Assembly: GCA_030674185.1 (NCBI GenBank)
Contig: JAPXFY010000218.1
Coordinates: forward strand, 1 to 64,000
DNA: 64,000 nt
Direction of reading: 5' to 3'
Origin: Monoplex corrugatus
Lineage: Eukaryota; Mollusca; Gastropoda; Littorinimorpha; Ranellidae
Shown here: positions 1,934 through 56,436 of the stretch, piece after piece
Layout of the letters: each line of letters starts with the position of its first letter
Numbering within the stretch: the stretch's first letter is position 1
Notes under the pieces: generated by a model
Databases searched by the model: none
Seen by the model: only the letters and a program-made list of their open reading frames with translations
Told to the model about the DNA's origin: nothing
Translations under genes and position numbers: made by a program

Positions 1934-2244
1934 CTGAACGAAAAAGTAGAAAAAGACTAGAGGGAGCACCACAGCCAGAAAGATGGGAGTCGACATGCTG
2001 ATGACCACAACAGTGCCGACGACGACCAGCATGCAGCGCCACCACATGGACACTTTGCCGGACAGCGTGTTGTCGATCACGTCCATATCCTTACTGAACC
2101 GATTCAGGAGACGCCCCAGAGGCGTCACGTCGAAGAATGACAGAGACTGGTGGAGCACCGCTCCCAGCATGCCCTGGTGCAGATGACACGAGGCCCGACG
2201 ACAACCCCAGGCCAACATAAGGGCCGCAAGGTAGCTTAGCACAC
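1934..2244 (-). CDS. ABCC1-like: ABCC exon w19, version b: alternative copy of the same TMD2 exon
   Basis: 311 bp, phase 1 in and 0 out, as in version a. It reads [20 protein letters not shown], then [20 protein letters not shown], and ends FFYFFVQ. About 50 of 104 residues equal version a, with the loop FFDVTPLGR and NRFSKD kept and the helices diverged. Acceptor GTGTAG, donor CAG|GTACAC. It is open throughout, so it does not look like a pseudo-exon. More versions may lie left of the window. Confidence 0.93.

Positions 2245-56436: not shown

Follow-up and report, generated by a model that had tools for sequence, protein, structure and literature searches.

Mirage-like minisatellites at splice junctions of an ABCC1/MRP1-type transporter gene in a caenogastropod snail

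Minisatellites whose unit spans an exon-intron boundary have been described in amphioxus under the name of 'mirage' minisatellites. They are known from Adh3, the globin genes BflGb6 and BflGb9, TnC and PGBD5, with units of 10-160 bp, and have been reported not to seem to disturb splicing (PMC3087553, PMC3902484). Tandem duplication carrying splice signals has also been described as a source of intron gain, as for ATP2A1 and the potato RdRp gene (PMC4974935). Among caenogastropods, hemocyanin is reported to have an unusually high rate of intron gain (PMC8599328); gastropod hemocyanin introns are also covered in PMC7931591, and simple repeats have been reported in the introns of cone snails (PMC3862624). 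In the CC-licensed literature searched, outside which subscription papers mostly lie, mirages were found for amphioxus only, with no report from a mollusc. Here, an array-rich gene of the snail Monoplex corrugatus is compared with these systems.

The gene and its exons

The window, the whole stretch of 64,000 nucleotides that was analysed, holds on its minus strand 19 exons of an ABCC1/MRP1-type transporter gene. With a draft joined from minus-strand open reading frames as query, MRP1 (ABCC1) was the top match among solved structures (E 2e-277), and the closest database relatives among the best 120 of 7969 matches were the caenogastropods Batillaria, Babylonia and Littorina, with a top local identity of 83%. 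Exons A-S, lettered in transcript order and equivalent to w1-w19b of the initial annotation, were placed by tblastn with Babylonia and Littorina proteins, their borders being fixed from the reading frame and AG/GT. Exons A-O join as a single open frame as far as exon O (about 13920-14003, minus strand), where an apparent frame break relative to Babylonia and Littorina is possibly due to faulty assembly or to a misplaced exon border. The donor of this exon was placed at 13918 in the junction search and at 13920, 2 bases away, in later analyses. The exons bordering the arrays are as follows.

53082..53213, minus strand: exon B (w2), start of the ABCC1 L0 linker; tblastn, AG/GT borders
47538..47750, minus strand: exon C (w3); tblastn, AG/GT borders
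44862..45039, minus strand: exon D (w4); tblastn, AG/GT borders
35980..36045, minus strand: exon F (w6); tblastn, AG/GT borders
32660..32806, minus strand: exon H (w8); tblastn, AG/GT borders
4708..5018, minus strand: exon R (w19a), a TMD2 exon, first of two alternative versions; tblastn
1934..2244, minus strand: exon S (w19b), the second, alternative TMD2 exon; tblastn

Exons R and S (minus strand) are two versions of one 311-bp TMD2 exon. By the assigned borders, each carries the frame from phase 1 to phase 0 and the inclusion of both would shift it; they therefore look mutually exclusive, as far as the sequence indicates. A predicted Batillaria protein contains both R-like (88%) and S-like (53%) stretches, and one compilation counts insect MRP1 as a gene with mutually exclusive exons (PMC6071210).

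Mobile elements are also present in the window. Two plus-strand transposase reading frames with the Pfam domain DDE_Tnp_1_7, which we take to be piggyBac-type, lie at 7494-8909 and 49437-51002, the second interrupted by a stop, and reverse transcriptase and endonuclease reading frames of retrotransposons occur at 20658-22727 (minus strand) and 61709-62863 (plus strand). No known RNA family was found in the window at gathering score.

Junction-spanning and other arrays

Queries of 16 exon and 14 intron bases from 38 junctions were compared with as much as 6 kb of the neighbouring intron, with three approximate dinucleotide (Markov) shuffles per junction as control and the exon O donor tested 2 bases off its later position. 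Matches in the adjacent intron were obtained for 6 of the 38 junctions, comprising the acceptors of B (36 matches, 35 of them spanning), F (24), S (9) and R (5, some inside a displaced array) and the donors of C (8) and H (22); shuffled queries from all 38 junctions gave none. The initial annotation had placed the junction within the repeat unit in seven introns, and these six bear it out. The seventh, at the intron end before w11 (exon K), was rejected: the array is separated by 61 bp from the K acceptor and by 43 bp from the J donor, and exon sequence was looked for in it on the gene strand and not found. The six junction arrays are given below.

53219..56025, minus strand: exon B acceptor array; unit of about 70-72 bp, TTTCAG followed by the first 34-35 bp of exon B and (GAT)n; 35 decoy AGs
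47069..47572, minus strand: exon C donor array; 56 bp unit, the last 34-35 bp of exon C followed by GTAAGT; 8 copies, 7 decoy GTs
36034..37044, minus strand: exon F acceptor array; units of 40 bp (and 73 bp), TGTACAG followed by GTAAAACAGATG; 23 decoy AGs
about 30731..32714, minus strand: exon H donor array; 64-94 bp unit, the last 52-55 bp of exon H followed by GTAAGT and (CAT)n; 22 decoy GTs
5007..5310, minus strand: exon R acceptor array; 32-33 bp unit, CACAG followed by GAGTGTTT; 8 decoy AGs
2232..3144, minus strand: exon S acceptor array; 31 bp unit, CAAG followed by GTGTGCTAAGCTA; 19 decoy AGs

Each unit carries 34-35 bp of exon in B and in C, 12 bp in F (one copy has about 50, namely exon F bases 1-51 at 36713-36762), 52-55 bp in H, 8-12 bp in R and 13 bp in S. 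With the true site excluded, 114 decoys retain their splice dinucleotide (B 35, C 7, F 23, H 22, R 8, S 19), a count obtained with a longer query and a lower threshold than the junction search. Among the R and S copies are some whose match to the true junction is no better than about 73-80%. Left out of it are five (GAT)n stretches at B and the copies lacking the dinucleotide (one in C, one in F, two in S). The dozens of decoy splice sites claimed at the outset are thus present, with 18 more in the displaced array described below. On the gene strand the perfect donor CAGGTAAGT is present 21 times where composition predicts 0.2, and H accounts for 19 of these (1 true site and 18 decoys). Arrays H and B are the two longest junction arrays and their units hold a GAT/CAT trinucleotide repeat of varying length; on opposite strands the two arrays align at 75.5% over 143 bp, probably through this shared repeat.

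Other arrays stand in looser relations to the exons.

45041..45155, minus strand: rearranged duplication at the exon D acceptor; copy of exon bases 19-57, then about 3 units of 30 bp
10012..10957, minus strand: displaced relative of the exon R acceptor array, in the R intron; about 19 copies of a 44 bp unit
26611..27605, minus strand: exon J array; ends 16 bp before the J acceptor and matches the intron end, unit without exon sequence
42886..44494, minus strand: possible exon E relative; 4.3 kb from exon E, 27 bp resembling the E acceptor region

At exon D (w4), where a smaller duplication had been said to span the acceptor, the 30-bp units fuse exon-interior sequence to the intron tail and the AG junction itself is unrepeated, so the duplication stands and its spanning of the junction does not. 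The displaced array keeps AG in 18 of 20 junction-like copies (10012-10878), and about 4.7 kb, including a piggyBac-type reading frame, separate it from the exon R acceptor array. The transposase frame at 7494-8909 sits between these two R-intron arrays; a search for transposon ends as inverted repeats in 5200-10100 turned up 12 pairs, none of them clear. The array at 42886..44494 is tentatively a displaced relative of the exon E acceptor, its score being equalled or beaten by 2.7% of 1811 control windows. Directly upstream of exon E (about 38605-38690, minus strand) lies a tRNA-like stretch, presumably a tRNA-derived SINE as judged by eye; it may have moved an array away from the E acceptor.

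The arrays had also been described as always touching the exon. This proved wrong: by TRF and a 10-bp rule only 6 of 28 intronic arrays do so (S, R, H, F, D and C), or 7 of 28 when the exon B array, which TRF splits, is counted. On the gene strand, 13 of 24 compared array regions (14114-14884 and 15818-17502, for instance) match no exon with its 30-base flanks.

Origin of the repeat units and chance placement

A search of the introns on the gene strand for pieces of exons gave bases 1-35 of B, 179-213 of C, 19-57 of D, 1-51 of F and 93-147 of H; in B, C, F and H these belong to the array-facing end of the exon, and in D they lie near that end. The one exception in this search was the mutual match of the duplicated exons R and S, whose short edges fall below its threshold and whose arrays rest on the copy lists and array comparison. 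No opposite-strand copies of exons B, C, D, F and H were found; opposite-strand matches occurred for K (5) and P (6), and the three listed of each lie in simple repeats. The junction arrays are of local origin, because their units carry the edges of the gene's own exons, which an importing transposon would not do.

Our preferred reading, at a probability of roughly 0.8, takes the arrays for mirage-type minisatellites. The founder would have been a short segment lying by chance across an exon-intron junction, which underwent tandem duplication and then expanded on the intron side by slippage or unequal exchange. The exon-proximal copy would remain the real splice site, because it alone adjoins an intact coding exon, and exon definition, with short exons in long introns, would probably pair each exon with its nearest acceptor and donor. 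The remaining copies would be neutral decoys, drifting and homogenising like those of any minisatellite. The initial annotation had offered expansion tolerated on the intron side only and repeated slippage from exon edges as causes. The first fits best, considering the fragments from array-facing exon ends, the conserved protein at those edges and the damaging outcomes of most decoys, while the second is only suggested by the data below. Slippage from exon edges and a coincidental placement both concern the origin of the founders only, and either is compatible with mirage-type expansion.

Coincidence, to which we assign somewhat less than even odds, would mean that in a gene extremely rich in minisatellites founders arise at arbitrary positions, a few of which are bound to cross a junction. 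It is favoured by the abundance of arrays, which take up about 39% of intron bases, and by the 22 of 28 arrays that touch no exon by TRF (21 when B is counted). Its weight depends on founder size. For 29 arrays, hand-listed from TRF rows, founders of present unit length placed uniformly against 36 internal junctions would give 0.92 junction-spanning cases, and 6-7 are observed (P 4e-4 to 5e-5), a 6- to 8-fold excess which speaks against coincidence. When the gene is shrunk to its pre-expansion length, 1.41 are expected (P(>=6) 0.003), and with an assumed 30% of transposable elements also removed, 2.01 (P(>=6) 0.017). Founders of 150 or 200 bp would give 2.9 or 3.8 (P(>=6) 0.07 or 0.19), at which the observed counts become unremarkable. 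Longer founders are hinted at by the copies of exon F bases 1-51 and exon D bases 19-57, and amphioxus globin mirages have units of 150-160 bp (PMC3087553). With a hand-picked set of 19 out of the 29 arrays the expectation was 0.62 (P 5e-5), and the larger set was preferred. A TRF test that counted arrays lying no more than 10 bp from an intron end found 6 where 0.52 were expected (P 3e-6); it was set aside as the main test, because it forbids exon overlap and ignores that founders fix position. The 6-7 arrays observed in this gene exceed expectations of 0.9-2 from chance placement, and the excess fades against the 2.9-3.8 of founders of 150-200 bp.

Alternatively, exon edges may actively seed duplication, for example through DNA damage linked to transcription or splicing, with arrays growing outward from a founder held by coding constraint; we regard this as tentative and on balance unlikely. 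The excess over 0.92 favours it, although it shrinks with founder size and ancestral gene length as above, and the estimate comes from a single gene chosen post hoc because it looked odd. Nor is there enrichment by density: against the 39% of intron bases in arrays, only 7 of 36 junction-adjacent bases lie in one (6 of 36 with periods of at least 14), a count which misses the TRF-split exon B array, and intron edges are therefore not enriched. Identity to the true junction falls with distance, as seeding from the edge would have it, in F (rho -0.78, p 7e-6) and C (rho -0.85, p 0.008), which may reflect decayed distal ends; the gradient is absent in S (-0.02) and H (0.07) and non-significant in R (-0.68, p 0.09, 7 copies) and B (-0.25, p 0.15). 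A wraparound alignment, which covered S, R, F and C only, gave higher conservation inside the exon block than outside it for S (0.926 vs 0.806, ranking third among 31 shifts) and for R (0.944 vs 0.831, ranking first among 32), as expected with a founder held by selection, but not for F and C. Arrays S and R are the two most diverged, and conservation of their exon columns counts against mirage-type drift as well, being unexpected if a finished array simply drifted. Preferential seeding at exon edges is thus suggestive only and unproven.

Consequences and conservation of the decoys

Outcomes of decoy use were computed for 111 decoys, with S taken at a stricter threshold (16) and the displaced R array excluded. 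Use of 107 of these would lead to a frameshift or a stop. The four that are in frame and open are the three nearest to exon B (72, 144 and 216 bp upstream) and the nearest to exon R; the three B decoys (53213-53429, minus strand) would, if used, add acidic repeats of about 24 amino acids to the L0 linker.

Functional decoys, whose repeated sites would recruit splicing factors or create regulated isoforms, are very improbable. AG or GT is kept in nearly all copies, 18 of the 22 H decoys are exactly CAGGTAAGT, the B insertions would be in frame, and arrays stand at the acceptors of both apparently mutually exclusive exons. Among the copies aligned, those of B, F, R and H show no variation in the splice dinucleotide, and in array R the AG scores 1.000 against 0.812 for the non-exon rest; together with the in-frame B and R decoys, this counts against neutrality. 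However, 54-82% of the other columns are conserved as well as or better than the dinucleotide. Selection on the decoy dinucleotides was accordingly rejected, and nothing shows the decoys to be functional, because these dinucleotides do not stand out. A weak polypyrimidine tract specific to the array acceptors was likewise rejected (pyrimidine 0.45-0.55 in B, F, R and S; 0.45-0.50 in A, G, J and N).

The proteins of relatives, most of them gene predictions in the wider comparison, bear on splicing indirectly. At the exon edges covered by arrays, identity to four relatives is 40/44 in B, 39/44 in C, 36/44 in F and 34/44 in H, and the remainder gives 0.81, 0.80, 0.79 and 0.70, the covered edges being equally conserved; this comparison took in B, C, F and H, with R and S outside it. 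In nine relatives, mostly gene predictions, aligned over exons A-O and hence without R and S, no insertion of at least 5 amino acids was found at the B, C, F and H array junctions, which argues against functional decoys. One relative has 6 extra residues within exon C, and three lack 5-7 residues within exon B. The exon copies found sit inside existing introns, the relatives having been compared by protein rather than by intron position. Under mirage-type expansion, the spliceosome would use the exon-proximal copy and the arrays would be neutral, as we infer from these patterns.

An assembly artefact of collapsed or duplicated reads is scarcely credible, since, hard as such arrays are to assemble and frame-broken as exon O seems, substitutions and indels set the copies apart from one another in arrays with six distinct sequences, and the repeats of the lancelet PGBD5 case were confirmed by new data (PMC3902484); the array copy numbers could nonetheless be wrong.

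Comparison with described systems

In potato RdRp, an intron-exon stretch was duplicated with its splice signals included, as in the snail arrays (PMC4974935). In contrast to these cases of intron gain, the exon copies found in the snail gene appear to have stayed within existing introns, and none is seen to form an additional one. The accumulation of introns in hemocyanin took place in the same clade as the snail gene, and the main text of the paper describing it gives no tandem-repeat mechanism, the words 'tandem' and 'repeat' occurring 0 times in it (PMC8599328). It is a speculative and rather doubtful extension that exon edges in the snail lineage are a continuing source of duplication, with splice-site arrays feeding new introns or exons, and that this could underlie the caenogastropod hemocyanin intron gain. 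If such arrays prove common, they would offer a natural experiment on how the spliceosome chooses the right site among dozens of near-identical ones, as well as a testable source of intron gain. The annotation of such genes may also contain false exons.

The closest resemblance is to the mirages of amphioxus, as far as these are described in PMC3087553 and PMC3902484. In both, the tandem unit spans the exon-intron boundary (at 6 of 38 junctions in the snail gene); 5' and 3' boundaries are both involved (two donors and four acceptors), and many copies keep AG or GT (the 114 decoys). Length instability, with somatic polymorphism included, and undisturbed splicing are reported for the amphioxus arrays, those of the snail being known from a single sequence. 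The snail gene differs in belonging to a mollusc, in having six or seven affected junctions within one gene and in carrying up to 35 decoys per junction. On their sequence anatomy, the snail arrays appear to match the amphioxus mirages, which would carry a peculiarity so far little studied in amphioxus over to a second phylum and indicate that it can be dense within one gene.
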